Assembly (NCBI GenBank): GCA_001709035.1
Contig: LVKA01000011.1
Span: 744,001-808,000 of the forward strand
Direction of reading: 5' to 3'
DNA: 64,000 nucleotides
Source: Candidatus Thiodiazotropha endoloripes
GTDB taxonomy: Bacteria > Pseudomonadota > Gammaproteobacteria > Chromatiales > Chromatiaceae
Both the position numbers and the translations under genes were made by a program. Under the pieces are notes generated by a model. The model was not told the origin of the DNA. It worked only from the letters and a program-made list of their open reading frames with translations, and ran no database searches. Numbering within the stretch: position 1 is the stretch's first letter; every line of letters starts with the position of its first letter. Positions 2,021-11,270 of this stretch are shown here, piece by piece.

Positions 2021-2593
2021 TCAATAATCCATATTCGGGTCGTAACCCTGGGGCAATGAATGAGCTATGCCTTTGTGACAATCAATACAGGTCTGCTGGG
2101 GCTCGTTGCCGTCCACTGCATCCCAATAGTGTGGATCATGCTGTTCCGAGCTGCGAGGGGCCTGCTTATCCAGGTCCATGGAGATGAACTTGTGACAGTT
2201 GCGACACTCCCGTGAATCTGTCTTTTTCATCGAACGCCAGACATTCTGTGCCAACTCCAGGCGTTTGGCTTCATATTTCTCCGGCGTGTCGATGGTGCCC
2301 ATCACTTTGTGATAGAGCTCATTGGTCGCCTGAATTTTGCGTACGAACTTATGTATCCACTCCTTGGGTACATGGCAGTCCGGACAGGTGGCGCGTACGC
2401 CGGTCCGGTTGGTGAAATGGATTGTCTCCTGAAGCTCCTGATAGACGGTGTTTTCCATCTCATGACAGGAGATACAGAACTCCTCTGTGTTGGTCATCTC
2501 CATAGCCGTGTTGAAGCCACCCCAGAGTAATATGCCGGCAATGATGCCAACACCCACCAGGAACAGTCCGCTACGCTTTTTACTCTCACTCAT
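2021..2593 (-). CDS. napC: NapC/NirT-type tetrahaem cytochrome c, quinol dehydrogenase
   Basis: NapC takes electrons from membrane quinol and hands them to periplasmic NapB/NapA. The 190-residue protein has one N-terminal membrane anchor (about residues 9-28, GLFLVGVGIIAGILLWGGF) and then four CxxCH haem motifs: CISCH, CPDCH, CRNCH and CIDCH. Length and haem spacing fit the NapC/NirT family. It is the last nap gene here, as in napFDAGHBC operons. The ATG at 2591-2593 has only a weak ribosome site, and a strong hairpin lies between napB and this start. No ccm cytochrome c maturation genes follow inside the window. Confidence 0.96.
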   Translation of the reverse strand: MSESKKRSGLFLVGVGIIAGILLWGGFNTAMEMTNTEEFCISCHEMENTVYQELQETIHFTNRTGVRATCPDCHVPKEWIHKFVRKIQATNELYHKVMGTIDTPEKYEAKRLELAQNVWRSMKKTDSRECRNCHKFISMDLDKQAPRSSEQHDPHYWDAVDGNEPQQTCIDCHKGIAHSLPQGYDPNMDY

Positions 2594-2629
2594 TATTACA
2601 CCAGATTATTGATCAACTACTCGTTACAC

Positions 2630-2663
2630 GGTTGGGTTTCCGCTCAAAGAGCGGTACCCAACC
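2630..2663 (-). promoter_or_regulatory. Strong hairpin between napB and napC
   Basis: The 75-base gap between napB and napC contains a long stem. On the + strand the arms are GGTTGGGTTTCCGCTC and GAGCGGTACCCAACC, around an AAA loop, with one small internal bulge. No run of T follows on the minus strand, so it is not a classical intrinsic terminator. It could protect or stop mRNA, or set the lower expression of napC. Its role is inferred. Confidence 0.6.
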
Positions 2664-2668
2664 AACTT

Positions 2669-3094
2669 CTATTTGGCGCCTTGAAAGTTGTTTTGCACCA
2701 GTGGATCTGCACCCATTTGAGCGGCATGGCACTGGGTACAAAAGTAGCGCCGGCTGGAGAGGGTCTTCAGCACGTTGCCATCGCGGTCCAGATAGTGGCT
2801 GTCGCCAACTCTGGGTGCCTTTTCTTTTTCATAGGTTGTTTCGCTGTGGCACTTCATGCAACCGTTGTTTTTCAGATTGATCTCATACTTGTCTACTTCA
2901 TGAGGCACCATCGGCGGTTGCAGTTTGAAGCTGCGCTCAATGCCACCCTTGACGTTGATAAGCTTCATGTTAGCGGGTTTTTTCGCCATGGTGTCCAGCT
3001 TGTCGCCCCGCAGGGATTGCACCTCGGCCAGAACAGCTGTGGACAGGAATATGGCTGCTAGTGCCGCAATGGTTTTTAATGCGATCTTTTTCAT
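2669..3094 (-). CDS. napB: Nitrate reductase cytochrome c-type subunit NapB
   Basis: NapB is the small dihaem cytochrome c that passes electrons to NapA in the periplasm. The 141-residue product starts with a clear signal peptide (MKKIALKTIAALAAIFLSTA, cleaved after VLA) and has two CxxCH haem sites, CMKCH and CTQCH, the second followed by AAQ as in other NapB proteins. The frame is open further upstream, to 3172. I chose the ATG at 3092-3094 because it begins the signal peptide and is preceded by GGAGAAAGG. It sits 49 bases after napH. Confidence 0.95.
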   Translation of the reverse strand: MKKIALKTIAALAAIFLSTAVLAEVQSLRGDKLDTMAKKPANMKLINVKGGIERSFKLQPPMVPHEVDKYEINLKNNGCMKCHSETTYEKEKAPRVGDSHYLDRDGNVLKTLSSRRYFCTQCHAAQMGADPLVQNNFQGAK

Positions 3095-3143
3095 ACCTTT
3101 CTCCATCATCACTCTAAATTCAGAAATTGTTTGGAATTGCCAG

Positions 3144-4052
3144 TCAGGCTTGAGCGCCCTGACTGATTTCACCTTCGCGTTTTAAGTCGTCATTTTTTTT
3201 GGCGTGACGACCGCCATAACTGAAAACGTCTTTGGCACAGATATCGATACAGCGCCCGCAATTGGTACAATCAGATGAGATGATCACCGGGGTCGCCCCC
3301 TGCTTCTCACCTTTCAGAGCCGGTTTGATAACCTGGGGTTCGGGACAGACCACATAACACTCCATGCAGTCATTGCAGGCCTGGCGTTCAAGCGCATTGA
3401 CCCTGAGCAGACTCTTGCTGCCCACCAGATTATAGAAAGCGCCGACTGGACAGATATGTCCGCACCAGCCATCTTTGGCAACGATCAGATCGAACAGAAA
3501 GATGCCCAGGACCATTACCCAGGCAGCCCCCATGCCGAAGACAATTCCCCGGAACATCATGGAGACCGGATTGACCAGCTCCCAGATGATGCCGCCGGTA
3601 ACCAGCAACGGCAGAATCAAGGTCAGGGCCAACATCCAGTAGCGTGTGCTGCGGGAGAACTGGGAGTTGCTTCTGATCCCCAGTTTGCGGCGTAGCCAGG
3701 CGGCCAGATCGGTCACCAAGTTGACCGGGCAGACCCAGGAGCAGTAGACCCGGCCACCCACCAGTAGATAGAACGCCAGTACGATCACCACACCAATGAT
3801 GGCAGCGGTCTCAGGCACCACGCCGGAGAGGCTCGCCTGCAATAACACATAGGGGTCGGTAAGCGGCAGTATGTCCAGGGTCAGACTGGATGCCAGATTA
3901 CCCTTGACGATCCATAGGCCGAACCAGGGGCCGGCGAGAAACAGGGCGAGAATGCCGAGCTGGCTGATTCGTCTCAGGATCAGGTACTTATGGGACTTCA
4001 TCCAGCCTTTGGCCGCGATGGCGTCGTCACCCAATGTCGTCATATCCACCAT
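3144..4052 (-). CDS. napH: Quinol dehydrogenase ferredoxin subunit NapH
   Basis: NapH is a polytopic membrane protein which, with NapG, forms a second quinol-oxidising route into the Nap system. The roughly 302-residue protein has about four membrane segments, two Cys-Pro membrane motifs (YCSWVCPVN and CGHICPVG), and at its C terminus two 4Fe-4S binding motifs (CNDCMECYVVCP and CTNCGRCIDIC). The frame extends upstream to 4127 inside napG. I chose ATG 4050-4052 because the following sequence (GWMKSHKYLILRRISQ) lines up with NapH N termini and the start lies one base past the napG stop. A second in-frame ATG three codons on (4041-4043) is also possible. Confidence 0.94.
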   Translation of the reverse strand: MVDMTTLGDDAIAAKGWMKSHKYLILRRISQLGILALFLAGPWFGLWIVKGNLASSLTLDILPLTDPYVLLQASLSGVVPETAAIIGVVIVLAFYLLVGGRVYCSWVCPVNLVTDLAAWLRRKLGIRSNSQFSRSTRYWMLALTLILPLLVTGGIIWELVNPVSMMFRGIVFGMGAAWVMVLGIFLFDLIVAKDGWCGHICPVGAFYNLVGSKSLLRVNALERQACNDCMECYVVCPEPQVIKPALKGEKQGATPVIISSDCTNCGRCIDICAKDVFSYGGRHAKKNDDLKREGEISQGAQA

Positions 4053-4053
4053 G

Positions 4054-4911
4054 CTACTTGTCCATGAATCCGCTATTGAGTGTATCCAGAGGATTTGAGG
4101 AGAAAGGGGTCTCCTCAGCCTCTCCATCGATGATCAAACCCTCACCCTGCAGGTCATAACGCACCCCATCGGGCAGGTTATATTGATGCTTGGTATCGGG
4201 TGTGACCAGTGCCTCACCAGCCTTCTCTTTCTCCTGCCAGCCAAGTCGGTAGTGTTTACCCAGTTCACCTTTCGCCAGGTGCATGGGGAATACCTTGATG
4301 GCCGCTTCCTCCAGGATGCAGGCCCGTTCACAAAGTCCACAACCGGTACAGGCATCGGAGTGGACTACCGGGATGAACAGGGCATGTTTGCCTGAGCGGG
4401 TGTTATGCTGCATATCCAGGGTGATAGCCCGGTTACGGATCGGACAGACGTTGAAGCAGACTTCACAGCGCAGTCCGTGAAAGGCAATGCAGTTTTCCTG
4501 GTCGATCAGGACCGCCAGCCCCATGCGGGACTCTTCGATATCCTTCAGGTCATGATCGAGGGCATTGGTGGGACAGGCAACGACACAGGGAATATCCACG
4601 CACATTTCACAAGGCCCGCTACGGGCGATGAAATAGGGGGTACCTGTGGCCACTTCATCTCCCACTTCACCCAGAAACAGAATATCGTAGGGACAGTCAC
4701 GCACGCACAGGCCGCAGCGAATGCAGGCGCCGAGAAAATCCTCCTCCGGCAGAGCGCCGGGGGGGCGGATATAGTTGGCCGGCATGGTGGAGGCCCGCTT
4801 TGAATAGGCACCCAATCCCAGTCCGACCAATCCCACCCCACAGGCAGTCTTGAGCATGTTGCCCAGGAACTGTCTGCGGTTGAGCTCGTTTTTGTCCTTA
4901 CTGTCTGACAT
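4054..4911 (-). CDS. napG: Ferredoxin-type protein NapG
   Basis: NapG is a periplasmic iron-sulfur protein that works with NapH to move electrons from quinol towards NapC/NapB. The 285 residues begin with a twin-arginine signal (NRRQFLGNMLKTACGVGLVG), consistent with export of a folded Fe-S protein. Four cluster-binding Cys groups follow: CIRCGLCVRDCP, CEMCVDIPCVVACP, CEVCFNVCP and CTGCGLCERAC. The order napA-napG-napH matches enterobacterial nap operons. A 113-base gap with a very stable hairpin separates it from napA. Confidence 0.95.
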   Translation of the reverse strand: MSDSKDKNELNRRQFLGNMLKTACGVGLVGLGLGAYSKRASTMPANYIRPPGALPEEDFLGACIRCGLCVRDCPYDILFLGEVGDEVATGTPYFIARSGPCEMCVDIPCVVACPTNALDHDLKDIEESRMGLAVLIDQENCIAFHGLRCEVCFNVCPIRNRAITLDMQHNTRSGKHALFIPVVHSDACTGCGLCERACILEEAAIKVFPMHLAKGELGKHYRLGWQEKEKAGEALVTPDTKHQYNLPDGVRYDLQGEGLIIDGEAEETPFSSNPLDTLNSGFMDK

Positions 4912-4984
4912 CTCTAATAAAAAACGTTTTCAGTTGAGTTGCATTCTGCCGTGGTGGCACCACAACCCATCAGAGTCGTGGTGG

Positions 4985-5007
4985 GGGGTGCGGCAGTGCC
5001 GCACCCC
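4985..5007 (-). promoter_or_regulatory. Very stable hairpin between napA and napG
   Basis: An 11-base-pair perfect inverted repeat (GGGGTGCGGCA and TGCCGCACCCC around a single G) lies just after the napA stop. A smaller hairpin at 4951-4963 (GTGGT, ACCAC) is next to it. No T-run follows on the minus strand. Such a structure inside an operon usually protects upstream mRNA or partly stops transcription, which would give more napA than napGHBC. That role is inferred. Confidence 0.65.
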
Positions 5008-5024
5008 TCTGCCGTTTCAGCCCA

Positions 5025-7595
5025 TCAGGCTCGACTGATCTTGACACCACACTTCTTGTAATCCGTCTCTTTCGAGAGCGGATCAGTCTGGTCGAGGGTC
5101 AGCTTGTTGACCAGGCGTCCAGCATCGAACCAGGGAACGAAAACCAGCCCTTCCGGACACTTGTTGCGGCCCTTGGTGTCGACCTTGCAGACGATCTCAC
5201 CACGACGGGAGGTGAGCTTGGCCAATGCACCGTTACGCAGACGCCGTTTCTTGGCATCTTTCGGATTCATGTAGACCACCGCGTCTGGGACGGCACGATA
5301 GAGCTCGGGTACGCGACGGGTCATGGAACCGGAGTGCCAGTGCTCCAATACCCGTCCGGTGCAGAGCCACAGATCGTACTCTTTGTCCGGCGGCTCAGCG
5401 GCGGGCTCATAGGGGGCGGTAATGATGTTGGCTCTGCCATCGGGCTTGCCATAGAATTTAACCCCTTCACCCTTGGCTACATGGGGATCGTAGCCCTCGC
5501 GGAAGCGCCACAGGGTCTCCTTGCCATCAATGACCGGCCAACGCAGGCCACGCACCTTGTGGTAGGCGTCGAAGTCGGCCATTTCGTGGCCTTTCTTCGG
5601 GATCCCCTCGGCAGAGTTGAACAGGCGATACTCTTCAAACAACCCTTTCTGTACATAGAAACCGAAGTCCTTGGACTCATCGTTTTCGTACTTGTTGCCA
5701 CGGGTGTCGGTAACCTGCTCTACCGGGAACTTGTCGACCTGGCCGTTGGCATAGAGCACATCGAACAGGGTCTTGTCGGCATACTCAGGCATCTTGGCGA
5801 TCAGATCTTCCGGCCAGACGTCTTTCACTTTGACATACTTGGCGAACTCCATGACCTGCCAGACGTCGGATTTTGCCTCACCGGGTGCAGCGACCTGCTG
5901 ACGCCAGAACTGGGTACGCCGCTCGGCGTTACCATAGGCACCTTCCTTTTCGATCCACATCGCTGTAGGCAGAATCAGATCCGCAGCCTGGGCCGATACG
6001 GTCGGATAGGGATCAGACACGGTGATGAAATTGTCCGGATTACGCCAACCGGGATAACTCTCATCATTCATGTTGGCGGCGGCCTGCATGTTGTTGTTAC
6101 ACATGACCCAGAAGGTATTCATCTTGCCGTCATTCAGGGCGCGATGCATGGCTACGGCGTGGATCAGGGTCTTGCCCATGGGTTTGCCGCTGATGTCGGT
6201 CTGGTCGGCGCCGTCGGTTTTACCGTTGGCCCGGGGAATGGTCCCGGCAGGCAGCTTCCAGGTCTTCTCGGCGAACTTACAGTGGGCGTCCTTCTTGGTC
6301 ACCAGGTCTGCGGGCAACCTGTGGGTAAAGGTACCAACCTCGCGGGCGGTGCCGCAGGCGGATGGCTGACCGGTGAGGGAGAAGGGGCTGTTGCCCGGCT
6401 CGGCGATCTTGCCCATCAGCAGATGGACGTTGTAGCAGAGGCCGTTGACCCAGACACCGCGGGTGTGCTGGTTAAAGCCCATGGTCCAGTAGGAGGAGAC
6501 CTTCTTGTTCGGATCGGCATAGGCCTTGGCCAGTTTCAGCAGCTGATCCTTCGGAACCTTGGAGAGCTTTGAGGTGTACTCCAGGGTGTAGGGCTCAACC
6601 GATTTGGCATACTCTTCGAAACTGATCTTGGAGAGCTTGCCCTTGTTGCGATTTTTGGCCGCCTTTTCGCGTGGATCAGTGGCACGCAGACCATAACCGA
6701 TATCGGTTGGTGTCTTGGTGAAATTGACGTGCTTGTCGATAAACTCCTTGTTGTAGGCCTTGTTCTGAATGATGTAGTTGGCAATGTAGTTGAGGATCGC
6801 CAGATCGGTCTGGGGCTCAAAGATCATGCCGTTGTCAGCCAGCTCGTAGCAGCGATGCTCGAAGGTTGAAAGTACATGGACTTCACAACCGGGCTTGGTC
6901 AGACGGGTATCGGTGAGGCGGGACCAGAGAATCGGATGCATCTCCGCCATGTTGGCGCCCCAGAGCACGAACACATCGGCGTGTTCCAGATCGTCATAAC
7001 AGCCCATCGGCTCATCGATACCGAAAGCGCGCATGAAAGCGCCCACGGCAGAAGCCATACAGTGGCGTGCATTGGGTTCCAGGCTGTTGGAGCGGAAACC
7101 TGCCTTCAGCAGTTTCTGTGCGGCATAGCCTTCCCAAACGGTCCACTGACCTGAGCCGAACATGCCGACACCCTTGGGTCCTTTGGCCTTACGTGCGGCT
7201 ACCCACTTATCAGCCATGGTCTGGAAAGCCTCTTCCCAGCTAACGGCCTCGAACTTGCCGTTCTTGTCATATTTGCCGTTGGTCTTTCTCAGCAAGGGTT
7301 TGGTCAGACGATCCTCTCCATAGAGGATCTTCGGTAGAAAGTACCCTTTGATACAGTTCAGGCCCTTGTTGACCGGTGCATCCGGATCGCCCTGACTGGC
7401 GACGACCTTACCGTCTTTGACACCCATCAAGACGCTACAACCAGTACCGCAGTAGCGGCAGGCCGCTTTGTCCCAACGGATGCCATCATCTGCATCGGCA
7501 GCAACAGCGCTGGACACAGGAAGGGTGACGCCGGCCACGGATGCAGCGGCTGCTACAGCATTGCTTTTTATAAAATCTCTTCTAGTTAATTTCAC
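5025..7595 (-). CDS. napA: Periplasmic nitrate reductase catalytic subunit NapA
   Basis: NapA reduces nitrate to nitrite in the periplasm with a bis-MGD molybdenum centre and one 4Fe-4S cluster. The 856-residue protein begins with a Tat signal ([19 protein letters not shown]). The cluster ligands are C46, C49, C53 and C81, and the likely Mo-ligating Cys is C179 in the motif ARHCMASA. Length is slightly above the usual 830 or so. Its start overlaps napD by 14 bases, so translation is probably coupled. It needs Moco (moaA is nearby), NapD for export control and NapB for electrons. The alternative, an assimilatory Nas enzyme, is ruled out by the Tat signal and the nap neighbours. Confidence 0.98.
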
Positions 7596-7851
7596 GGTTC
7601 ATTTCCTCCATCGACTCTTCACCGCCATAGTGATAAATCAAAGTTGTGCTCACCACGCCATCCACATTGCGCAGTTCATTCATAGTGTCTGAAACCGGTG
7701 ACATGGATTCACCCTCGTCTTCCACAGTAACAATCAGTTTGTCCTCTATCATTCCACCGTGGACTTCCACACCTTGGTATTGTGTTAGGCGCTTGGAGAC
7801 TTGGGGGCCATGGTCGGGTTTCGTATAGACAATCAGGCTGCATATATTCAT
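7582..7851 (-). CDS. napD: NapA signal-peptide chaperone NapD
   Basis: NapD is a small cytoplasmic chaperone that binds the twin-arginine signal of NapA and prevents export before cofactor insertion. The 89 residues fit the ferredoxin-like NapD fold: an N-terminal strand ([12 protein letters not shown]), a [14 protein letters not shown] segment, and the conserved Tyr-His near the end (LIYHYGGE). It sits between napF and napA, and its last codons overlap the napA start, as expected for a partner made in step with its substrate. Confidence 0.93.
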
Positions 7852-7878: not shown

Positions 7879-8448
7879 TCAGGCCGCTTGGGTCTGTGTG
7901 CCTGGCAAAATGGAAATGGAATGACTGGGGCAAACTGAAATACAGGCTCCACAGCTATTACACTTTTGCTGATCAACCTGTGGTAGGGAACGCCCCCTGG
8001 TAGCAAGCTTGAAGCAGATGGCAGCCTCTTCGCAGATGTCGCCACAGCTTCTGCAGACCACGCCGTTTTGCGACAGGCAGCTCTTTTCGATGCTCAGTTC
8101 GAGGTGCCAGGGTGCCATGTTCGGATCACTGTCAAAGCCCAGAGCCTGATGTTCACAGGCCTTTACGCAATCGCCGCAAAATGTACATTGGGCGACAGAG
8201 AAATCGATTTTTGGAAAACCGGCAGAACCCCGTGTAATGATTTTCTGGGGACAGGCTTCAATGCAGTCGTTGCAGCGTTCGCAAAGTTCAGTAAAGCTGC
8301 TTTCTGATTGCGACCAGGGTGGTCGTATCTCACTTTGTCGACCGCGCAAGTCACCACGTAAAAACTGTGATCTGTCGATGTGTCCTGACAACAGTCGCGA
8401 CCTCGGTTGATAGAGTTCAGTCGAATTTGATTGGCCTTTTTGAGGCAC
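7879..8448 (-). CDS. napF: Ferredoxin-type protein NapF
   Basis: NapF is a cytoplasmic iron-sulfur protein linked to NapA maturation or cluster supply in other bacteria. The 189 residues carry Cys groups for four clusters: CERCNDCIEACP, CTFCGDCVKAC, CRSCGDICEE and CNSCGACISVCP. The region IRPPWSQSESSFTELC matches the usual NapF N-terminal segment; about 25 residues before it are extra. The start used is a GTG at 8446-8448 with no obvious ribosome site, so the exact start is uncertain. It is the first gene of the operon. An FNR-type box lies 47-60 bases upstream and a NarL-type palindrome lies further up. Confidence 0.93.
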   Translation of the reverse strand: MPQKGQSNSTELYQPRSRLLSGHIDRSQFLRGDLRGRQSEIRPPWSQSESSFTELCERCNDCIEACPQKIITRGSAGFPKIDFSVAQCTFCGDCVKACEHQALGFDSDPNMAPWHLELSIEKSCLSQNGVVCRSCGDICEEAAICFKLATRGRSLPQVDQQKCNSCGACISVCPSHSISILPGTQTQAA

Positions 8449-8494
8449 AATGTTTTTGCTTGTGAAAGTGTTTCACCAAGCCCTTAATACTGCT

Positions 8495-8508
8495 TTGATT
8501 CTGATCAA
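8495..8508 (-). promoter_or_regulatory. FNR/ANR-type box upstream of napF
   Basis: The sequence TTGATTCTGATCAA is an exact match to the TTGAT-N4-ATCAA consensus bound by FNR-family oxygen sensors. Its centre is about 54 bases before the napF start codon. If FNR acts at the usual -41.5, transcription would begin about 12 bases before the GTG. This predicts anaerobic activation of the nap operon; no FNR gene is in the window. Confidence 0.8.
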
Positions 8509-8554
8509 GAAACAATGGGAAATCTTAAGAAAAAAATAATAAAAAACAGTAACT

Positions 8555-8570
8555 TACCAATATATTGGTA
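8555..8570 (-). promoter_or_regulatory. 7-2-7 palindrome, likely NarL/NarP-type operator
   Basis: TACCAATATATTGGTA is a perfect 16-base palindrome made of two heptamers TACCAAT facing each other across two bases. NarL and NarP bind heptamers close to TACYYMT, and NarP needs exactly the 7-2-7 layout; each half here matches six of seven positions. It lies 61 bases (centre to centre) upstream of the FNR box, and narXL is the next gene pair. Binding by this NarL is inferred. Confidence 0.65.
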
Positions 8571-8686
8571 GCGTTATATACCTCAATGTGAGTAGACGCT
8601 AATTCGTTTTGGGTAAAATCTGGCGGTAACGGCGGAATAGCGATTGCACTGATTGCAATCTGTCTGAACAGGCCCTGGAGAGAGGT

Positions 8687-9346
8687 TTAGCTGGAAGGTT
8701 TTTTCCCCTGGTTGAGGGCCCAAACGGCAGCCTCGGTTCTGGAGTGGAGATTGAGCTTTTTCAGCAGATGTTTGACGTGCACTTTGACCGTGCCTTCTGA
8801 GATAGCAAGGTTGGTGGCGATCTGTTTATTGCTCAGTCCCTGGGCAATGTGCTGAAGAATCTCCTTTTCCCTTGAGGTGAGATCCGGCATGGTGGATTGA
8901 GTATCCAGTCTGTCGTCCTCGCGCAGCGCTTTTGCCAGCAGTTGAGTCAAATGATCGCTGATGACCACGGTGCCCTCTACCGCTTTGCGGATCGATTTGA
9001 GAATATCTTCCGGCTCCATATCCTTCAGCAAATAGCCGTCTGCACCATTTTTCAGTGCTGCGAGCACATCCTCTTCATTATCTGAGACGGTGAGCATCAG
9101 GACCCTTGAATCAAGCTCAAAACTCTTGATGGCTTTCAAGGTATCCAGGCCGTTGGTGCCCTTCATATTGATATCGAGCAGGATCAGATCCGGGTTGAAC
9201 TCCCGTGCCAGCACCAGGCCATCCTCGCCATTGGCTGCTTCTCCGATCAGTTCAAGGCCTGGATCCATATCGATCAGATCGGAGACACCTTTTCTGAAAA
9301 GTGGGTGATCGTCTATCGCCAGCAGTGTGTAGTGTTGTTCAGGCAT
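8687..9346 (-). CDS. narL: Nitrate/nitrite response regulator, NarL family
   Basis: This 219-residue protein has a receiver domain with the acidic pair IDDHP near residues 12-13, phosphoacceptor D58 in LILLDINMKG, and the conserved Lys in GYLLKDM. A LuxR/FixJ-type helix-turn-helix follows (LTSREKEILQHIAQGLSNKQ, then ISEGTVKVHVKHLLKKL). It overlaps the upstream narX by 8 bases, so the pair is made together. The role as NarL (or NarP) rests on the P-box of the partner kinase and the nap operon next door. It likely binds the 7-2-7 palindrome 117 bases past its stop. NarL and NarP cannot be told apart by sequence alone. Confidence 0.88.
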   Translation of the reverse strand: MPEQHYTLLAIDDHPLFRKGVSDLIDMDPGLELIGEAANGEDGLVLAREFNPDLILLDINMKGTNGLDTLKAIKSFELDSRVLMLTVSDNEEDVLAALKNGADGYLLKDMEPEDILKSIRKAVEGTVVISDHLTQLLAKALREDDRLDTQSTMPDLTSREKEILQHIAQGLSNKQIATNLAISEGTVKVHVKHLLKKLNLHSRTEAAVWALNQGKKPSS

Positions 9347-11270
9347 CTTTCAATTGCTCGGTAAAAAGACGTTGCGATTCCCGGCTCGAAATATCAGCAA
9401 TCGTGAAGACCAGATTGATCTGGGTTCCGCCTATCGGTGACTCATTGATGTGTAGTTCGCCACCTAAATGTTCCGCCCGCTCCTTCATGATCGGCAGCCC
9501 ATAGTGTTGCATCATATCACCTTCGCCATCTATGCCAATGCCGTTATCCTCAATGTTGACTGTCACCAGACCCTGATGGTCGCAGTCCATGCTCACTCTT
9601 GCCTCGGTAGCATTTGCATGGCGTATCACGTTGGAGAGCGCTTCCCGGATGATCTGAATGATATGTATCTCGGCATTCGGTGAAAATTGACAGTTGCCCA
9701 GGGTATTGATGAATTCAATCGGAATGCCTGAGCGATTGGTGAATTCTTCAACGGTCTGATTGATCAGTCTGCCGAGGTTGGCGTCGGTGACCCTGAGTCG
9801 GAAAGTGGTGAGCAGCTCTCTCAGCTGTCGATAGGCGCCATTCAGCGCCGACCTCAATACGGAACTGATCTGTAGTACATCCTCTTTCGGCAGGTCATCG
9901 TTCACGGCTTTTTCGAGGCGCGCCACCTGAATCTTCAGATAGGAGAGTGACTGGGCTATCGAATCATGCAGCTCTCTGGCGATGACACTGCGCTCTTCCA
10001 TCAAAGACATTTTTCGGTTTTGAATATCCTGCTGGGTGACTGATATTGCCAATCCGATATGGCTGGCAACGGTTTCCAACAGGCGAGCCTGCCACTCCTC
10101 CAGCTCTTGTGAGGGCTGCAGTTCGACCATCAGGATGCCGTAGTACTTGGCCTTATCCCGGATCGGTGTTGAAAAGATATTGATCCGCTTGCCGCTGGCT
10201 GGATCGCAGGTCTGGAAACTGTGGGTTTCACCATCCCCAAGACACATAGCGCATTGGCCATCATTTTGGTCTTTGAGCAGAATATCCTTGCTTCGGGTCG
10301 AGGCGTACCGATAGGCCTGGTGGTCTCCGGGCTGACCCAGGCAGATCGTTCCATTGTTAACCCCGAGCAGGGCCTCGATATCGTGAATCACGGCAATCAG
10401 AACCTGCTCGTTGAGGGATGAGTCACTCAAGCGTTTGGTGGTGGAGTAGAGCAGTTCGAGGGTGCGATTACTCTGTTCCAGATCCTGGGTTTTCTCTTCC
10501 ACGCGGTATTCCAGATCTGAATAGATGACTGACAGGTTGTCAGCCATCAGATTGAAAGCATGACCGAGCTGACCCAGTTCGTCTTCGCTTAAAAATCGAC
10601 TTCTTACCGAAAAGTCACCATGACGAGCCGCTTTGGCGCAGGCAAGTAGATTGCGCAACGGGTTCAGAACGGAAATTTTTGTCAGGTAGAGGCTTATCAG
10701 GGCAACCAGAAAAGTGAAGCTGAGCAGAATGATCTGGATCAGACGGAGCTGCTGGTTTTTCTGTTCCGCTTCAAGCTCCAGGGCTTCCACGAAACTGTGT
10801 ATGTCATCCACGAAACCATCCACCAGTGAAAGATAGGTCTGCCGGCTGACATCGATTTCGTCCAGCCCGTGAACAGCAGGATCGGAGGTTTCAGTCATCT
10901 TCAGGTAGTTCTTGAGGTTGGGCAGCATCAACTGCTGCCATTGGCGCTCAACCCTTTGGTAGGTGCTATTGACTTCATCCCCTGTGCCTTTGGCCAGTAC
11001 ATCATGAATCCGCGGGCTGTGAAGACGTTGATTGTACTCATCCACCAGCAGTCCGGATCTGTTGCCTGGATGATTGCTGTGCGGATTGCCATGCACCAGA
11101 CTGCTGGCGATGCGGTATGACTGCATACGCAGGGTGCCCGCTTGATTGATTGCCGCTGCATAGCCTTCTGCGGTGTCTGCAATGATCACCGAACTGATCA
11201 TCCCGGAGAGCGCCAGAATGAAGAGTATCGTAATGAACGTTCCGAAGCGGAGTAGCAGTGAGTGTTTCAC
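9339..11270 (-). CDS. narX: Nitrate/nitrite sensor histidine kinase, NarX type
   Basis: This 643-residue membrane kinase senses nitrate/nitrite in the periplasm and phosphorylates NarL. It has a first membrane helix at about residues 10-33, then the P-box that binds nitrate (AGTLRMQSYRIASSL, near residues 45-58), a periplasmic helical domain, a second helix near 175-195 and a HAMP domain. A GAF-like region with several Cys (residues about 290-400) follows, then a HisKA_3 domain with H435 in ARELHDSIAQ, and a HATPase domain (NVIRHAN, DNGIGID). The GTG start at 11268-11270 follows AGGAGA at good spacing. The P-box is a strong NarX/NarQ marker. Confidence 0.92.
   Translation of the reverse strand: MKHSLLLRFGTFITILFILALSGMISSVIIADTAEGYAAAINQAGTLRMQSYRIASSLVHGNPHSNHPGNRSGLLVDEYNQRLHSPRIHDVLAKGTGDEVNSTYQRVERQWQQLMLPNLKNYLKMTETSDPAVHGLDEIDVSRQTYLSLVDGFVDDIHSFVEALELEAEQKNQQLRLIQIILLSFTFLVALISLYLTKISVLNPLRNLLACAKAARHGDFSVRSRFLSEDELGQLGHAFNLMADNLSVIYSDLEYRVEEKTQDLEQSNRTLELLYSTTKRLSDSSLNEQVLIAVIHDIEALLGVNNGTICLGQPGDHQAYRYASTRSKDILLKDQNDGQCAMCLGDGETHSFQTCDPASGKRINIFSTPIRDKAKYYGILMVELQPSQELEEWQARLLETVASHIGLAISVTQQDIQNRKMSLMEERSVIARELHDSIAQSLSYLKIQVARLEKAVNDDLPKEDVLQISSVLRSALNGAYRQLRELLTTFRLRVTDANLGRLINQTVEEFTNRSGIPIEFINTLGNCQFSPNAEIHIIQIIREALSNVIRHANATEARVSMDCDHQGLVTVNIEDNGIGIDGEGDMMQHYGLPIMKERAEHLGGELHINESPIGGTQINLVFTIADISSRESQRLFTEQLKDA

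Follow-up and report, generated by a model that had tools for sequence, protein, structure and literature searches.

In Escherichia coli K-12 DNA a 7-2-7 site is located at -121.5 from the napF start and an FNR-like sequence, TTGATCCTGCTACA, lies 20 bp further upstream; the published positions of these sites are -44.5 and -64.5. The Haemophilus influenzae napF promoter has the same site order as that of E. coli. At the E. coli narG promoter FNR is centred at -41.5. The sections of PMC4549865 dealing with this promoter describe NarL regions at -89 and -195 and cooperative action of NarL with IHF, and narG appears there as a promoter without 7-2-7 sites. At E. coli nrfA, according to passages of PMC5434802, FNR is at -41.5 and NarL/NarP bound at -74.5 displaces IHF. 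Another NarL-activated promoter is that of E. coli ogt, where, in the portions of PMC7419079 concerned, NarL contacts alphaCTD from -44.5, -67.5 and -77.5 and most other single NarL site positions tried were poorly active. Further background is given in parts of PMC1805755, PMC8139620, PMC1802743 and PMC13137333. A search by title of the open-licence literature found no study on nap promoters in Candidatus Thiodiazotropha or its family.

The window analysed here, a 64-kb stretch of the Candidatus Thiodiazotropha endoloripes genome, carries on its minus strand narX (9339–11270), narL (8687–9346), a 238-bp gap, napFDAGHBC and then moaA, the gap being measured from narL to the longest napF open reading frame (GTG 8448). 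The napF gene (7879–8391, minus strand) scored 119.4 bits with NCBIfam TIGR00402 (cut-off 102.2), and the remainder of the operon, napDAGHBC (2021–7851, minus strand), was assigned from NCBIfam matches. The nap promoter lies between narXL and napFDAGHBC; a sequence-only reading had placed FNR and NarL sites in such a promoter next to narXL, and this is supported. Within 8389–8448 the longest-frame GTG at 8448 is probably too early, and TTG 8391 is the more likely start codon of napF, for in several relatives a stop closely precedes the position of the TTG (in frame in loci L008, L009, L010, L018 and L019). This TTG is preceded by GAGG and fits the conserved start region better than does GTG 8448. 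Stops within the napF match were present in loci L007–L010, L018, L019 and L022.

The narL product matched the NarL model NF007935 with 309.2 bits (cut-off 250) and also matched PDB 1a04, with which it has the DNA-reading helix TVKVHVKH in common. The adjoining gene encodes a NarX/NarQ-type nitrate sensor kinase whose best NCBIfam scores, 413.9 bits for NarQ and 385.8 bits for NarX, fall under the respective equivalog cut-offs (553 and 578); its P-box, AGTLRMQSYRI, shares RMQSYR with the AGSLRMQSYRL of NarQ. It was the sole match in its own genome to the NarX N-terminal region (E <= 1e-10). No narG match was obtained in this genome, and in a set of 22 genomes comprising Candidatus Thiodiazotropha and other lucinid-clam symbionts (hereafter the genus) 9 had a narG match and 13 did not. 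These counts are in line with the published table in PMC9938160, where the part covering the taylori, lotti and weberae species lists a periplasmic and no respiratory nitrate reductase. A second, divergent NarX (mostly 35–43% identity) was observed near narG in G002, G011, G015, G020 and others of the genus genomes that encode the membrane-bound nitrate reductase. With the distant NarX located near narG, and no narG match in the present genome, it is the narXL pair next to nap that seems to be the one relevant to this operon.

Within the nap promoter, the coordinates and letters previously given for an FNR box at 8495–8508 and a NarL site at 8555–8570 were correct. The FNR box, TTGATTCTGATCAA (minus strand, centre 8501.5), is an exact TTGAT-N4-ATCAA, and the NarL site, TACCAATATATTGGTA (site 1), is an exact 7-2-7 consensus. 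Both had been described as perfect palindromes 61 bases apart. This holds for site 1, which is a perfect 16-bp palindrome, whereas in the FNR box the arms alone are symmetric and the centre, TCTG, is not; the figure of 61 bp is the distance between centres, with 46 bp actually separating the edges. Beyond that reading, a 7-2-7-like site 2, TACTCACATTGAGGTA, was found at 8579–8594 (minus strand) with two mismatches, these being the seventh base of each heptamer, together with a degenerate NarL-like site 3, TACCCAAAACGAATTA, at 8600–8615 (minus strand), which is weak as a full site, and a -10-like element at 8467–8475. When the 238-bp gap was dinucleotide-shuffled 20,000 times, an exact NarL site arose in 5 of the shuffled sequences, an exact FNR box in 11 and both in none, indicating that the pair is not due to chance. 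The FNR box is the only exact one in the window and one of 23 in the 4.87-Mb genome, against 3 for a reversed control pattern, while TACCAATATATTGGTA is the sole exact 7-2-7 match in the window (0.03 expected) and one of three in the genome. No exact FNR box was found within the 3-kb loci surrounding the other two (L031 and L032), and that of L031 falls inside a 738-aa open reading frame. Among the 16 of 23 exact FNR boxes whose surroundings were examined (L034–L048 and nap), nap alone had a NarL-like site (<=1 mismatch in the 3-kb locus, or 2 near the FNR box).

Lack of conservation in close relatives had been named beforehand as an outcome that would refute the earlier reading. NapF was found in all 22 genus genomes, and alignment of the 22 upstream regions showed that every one keeps the whole layout, in the order towards napF of NarL site 3, site 2, site 1, an AT-rich conserved spacer, the FNR box and GAAACACT. 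The FNR box is exact in 17/22 and has one mismatch in the other 5. Site 1, with 0–2 mismatches, always has its centre 60 or 61 bp away from that of the FNR box; site 2 lies 24 bp upstream of site 1 in 22/22, also with 0–2 mismatches, and is exact in five (L011, L012, L018, L019 and L022); site 3 lies 21 bp upstream of site 2 in 22/22 with 2–5 mismatches, and in it TACC (replaced by TATC in L010 and L012) and the terminal TA are conserved. Spacings of 21, 24 and 31 bp are thus invariant and only that between FNR and site 1 varies. In the 60-bp promoters the entire NarL array is shifted together with its own spacing kept, and so behaves as expected for one unit. The layout of the nap control region is real, tidy and conserved.

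In all 22 promoters the distance between GAAACACT and the centre of the FNR box is 31.0 bp, and the preceding T is present in all 22 alignment rows. The resulting extended -10-like element, TGAAACACT (8467–8475, minus strand; TG at -15/-14 and hexamer AACACT at -12 to -7), is invariant and placed exactly as an extended -10 would be with FNR at -41.5 (A-11, T-7), although it is weak, with 3/6 matches to TATAAT. A GTGAAA-N3-TTTCAC palindrome around the -10 (8461–8475) occurs in the window and is unconserved in the genus, so that only TGAAACACT was kept. Across 25 genera, with L094, L163 and two genera that have NarL at the promoter and no proximal FNR (g8 and g14) excluded from the profile, TATAAT-likeness peaked where its first base is -12 for FNR at -41.5 (mean 3.24/6, z 5.0), the next best offset having z 2.4; within this genus alone -12 ties with -15. 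Similarly, 40 non-genus promoters (<=2 per genus), with positions counted from the proximal FNR box, showed enrichment of T-12, A-11, A-8 and T-7. The position of this peak suggests that FNR at nap is most likely a class II activator. The napF transcription start predicted at 8460 (minus strand) from the -10 and an FNR position of -41.5 therefore has good support, and would place sites 1, 2 and 3 at -102.5, -126.5 and -147.5, respectively. In the short leaders of L013, L018, L019 and L022 GAGG follows 11 nt after GAAACACT, so that the start must be near and little space is left for another; L010 also shows GAGG at 11 nt, but its leader is long and the alignment shows this GAGG to be fortuitous. 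A further -35/-10 pair, TTGAGG-16-TATATT (8586–8559), was picked up inside the NarL sites by a consensus scan, yet such a match is at chance level (0.8 expected) and its TATATT is unconserved in the genus, making initiation from it very improbable.

Comparison with the E. coli promoters places these elements in a known context. The napF promoter of E. coli serves the same operon and has sites for the same two regulators, but there the 7-2-7 site is proximal and FNR distal, an order reversed in 22/22 genus promoters; the reversal had been claimed earlier and was verified on the K-12 DNA. It had also been taken to imply a separate mechanism, a suggestion now less supported as nrfA and narG share the layout of FNR at -41.5 with NarL upstream. 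As described in the nrfA passages of PMC5434802, that promoter has FNR at -41.5, the position predicted here, an upstream NarL/NarP site and IHF, which is a candidate participant at nap as well; here, site 1 is predicted at approximately -102.5, two or three NarL sites are present and the operon is another. Likewise narG, in the relevant sections of PMC4549865, has FNR and, farther from the start, a number of NarL sites, and differs in its want of 7-2-7 sites, site 1 at nap being a perfect one. The tandem 7-2-7 sites recall ogt, which, as far as the account in PMC7419079 covers it, has no FNR and has NarL sites closer to the start. The layout is the nrfA/narG arrangement applied to nap, with no new mechanism.

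To place this arrangement within the order, in which NapF was present in 98/210 genomes, 76 of 77 non-genus napF matches were read (fragment G165 was left out), and after five regions with <250 bp upstream were dropped 71 remained. Genomes were classed by a NarX N-terminal search as having nap-type NarX (>=250 bits, plus G097), a distant type or none. G097 was added because tblastn found narX and narL adjoining its napF; as the search had missed this NarX, absences in it are uncertain, and with this proviso NarL-like sites were present at napF in 15/16 nap-type, 0/10 distant-type and 1/45 NarX-less genomes. The contrast of 15/16 with 1/55 gives a Fisher p of 2.8e-13, uncorrected for relatedness, and the shuffle background was 71/1420. 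In genera g9 and g59 the NarX-bearing genomes have NarL sites and the single NarX-less genome of each does not. The one nap-type promoter counted as a miss, L094 (G099), has upstream DNA resembling napA coding sequence, and its contig may be misjoined. In 12 of the 15 (genera g36, g9, g12, g59, g3 and g40) the NarL site nearest or next to the proximal FNR is found 48–90 bp upstream of it, at distances of 48, 50, 62, 74 and 76 bp, g40 showing 76 or 90 bp. The remaining three, L122 and L132 (g8) and L142 (g14), have two NarL-like sites 25 bp apart, the inner near -44 relative to TATTAA as read from the sequence, and no proximal FNR box was found in them. A second FNR-like box 31–41 bp away was seen in 17/45 NarX-less, 8/10 distant-type and 0/16 nap-type promoters. 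Such tandem boxes, observed in 25/55 promoters without nap-type NarX (L096, L110, L139, L147 and others), are spaced at 39 bp in 17 pairs and 31 bp in 6; it is as though NarL gave way to another dimer of FNR where nap-type NarX is absent. A survey of the whole class (369 genomes; 56 of 61 non-genus napF upstream regions examined, to 2 kb where the contig allowed) yielded narXL matches in 0/56 and a NarL-like site in 3/56, one of them exact (L171), and the layout of proximal FNR with NarL upstream was not found outside the family in this 56-region sample.

These data are probably best accounted for by class II activation of the napFDAGHBC promoter by FNR together with co-activation by phosphorylated NarL from upstream, the transcription start, the binding and the positive sign of the NarL effect being inferred. 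The weak -10 and the poor activity of most single NarL site positions tried at ogt count against this account. At low oxygen FNR would bind at -41.5 and activate as a class II regulator on the weak extended -10. The products of the adjoining narXL genes would respond to nitrate, and phospho-NarL dimers on two or three neighbouring sites would raise transcription further. Co-activation would most likely proceed either through contact with a free alphaCTD of RNA polymerase or, as at nrfA, through remodelling of a nucleoprotein complex that occupies the AT-rich spacer and may include IHF. By analogy with class I contact by CRP, the phase of -102.5 would suit contact of that kind; the NarL–FNR distance varies among genera and departs from that phase in them, which makes a rigid contact unlikely and favours flexible contact or remodelling. 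Of the roles previously offered for the upstream site, helper or repressor, the former is preferred, and the candidate mechanisms rank as co-activation, then IHF remodelling as a strong sub-model, then repression.

In the most restricted form of that sub-model NarL would make no polymerase contact and would only displace IHF or another nucleoid protein by which a promoter otherwise driven by FNR is kept down. This is somewhat unlikely as a complete account, its probability overlapping with that of co-activation, of which it is a part. The AT-rich conserved spacer, the varying NarL–FNR distance and an IHF-like match (YAAN4TTGATW; 8544–8556, minus strand) abutting site 1 would fit it, as does displacement of IHF by NarL/NarP at -74.5 of nrfA in the passages of PMC5434802. 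The match itself is speculative, however, as it has two mismatches in the window, its first bases belong to the NarL site and a best match with two mismatches also occurs in 57% of shuffles; across the genus it is exact in 5/22, with one mismatch in 6/22 and with two in 11/22 including the window. NarL bound to the upstream array might instead repress nap, for instance when nitrate is plentiful, and phospho-NarL is an antagonist at E. coli napF. Repression by NarL also has a precedent at frdA, but there, in the part of PMC4549865 concerned, the site overlaps the start (-4/+6), whereas at nap the NarL sites leave FNR, the -35 and the -10 free. Moreover, without a narG match in this genome there is no respiratory Nar to take over at high nitrate. 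Repression was judged quite unlikely given sites well upstream of FNR and the -10 that track nap-type NarX. As regards the proximal box, DNR-type proteins share TTGAT-N4-ATCAA, and 12 HTH_Crp_2 matches were obtained in the genome, of which one scored under the curated cut-off (five of the 12 were classified; loci L226 and L229 were dropped), so that another family member such as a DNR-like regulator could use it. This is also unlikely, if slightly less so than repression, as the genome encodes a clear FNR orthologue (L222; NF008365, 280.7 bits, cut-off 228) with an N-terminal cysteine cluster. An exact FNR box (L040 1501–1514, C7:900207) lies close to the gene for FNR itself (L222, C7:899224; G000), which suggests autoregulation.

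Class II activation by FNR with upstream co-activation by NarL may be one form of a modular nap promoter in the family, in which a fixed FNR class II core would be combined with an exchangeable upstream slot, a reading put forward tentatively and with rather less than even confidence. A cooperative NarL array would fill the slot where nap-dedicated NarXL is present and a second FNR dimer, 31–41 bp upstream, where NarXL is absent, whilst in g8 and g14 NarL itself would take the place of FNR near -44; a private nitrate sensor would thus accompany the operon together with its array of operators. FNR and NarL sites can stand in either order at nap, and the NarL sites there are tied to one kind of NarX. 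The related promoters, with NarL and FNR 48–90 bp apart, form a natural series for the combined action of these regulators at a distance. In the clam symbionts, 13 of 22 of whose genomes are without a narG match, nap is predicted to respond to both nitrate and low oxygen.
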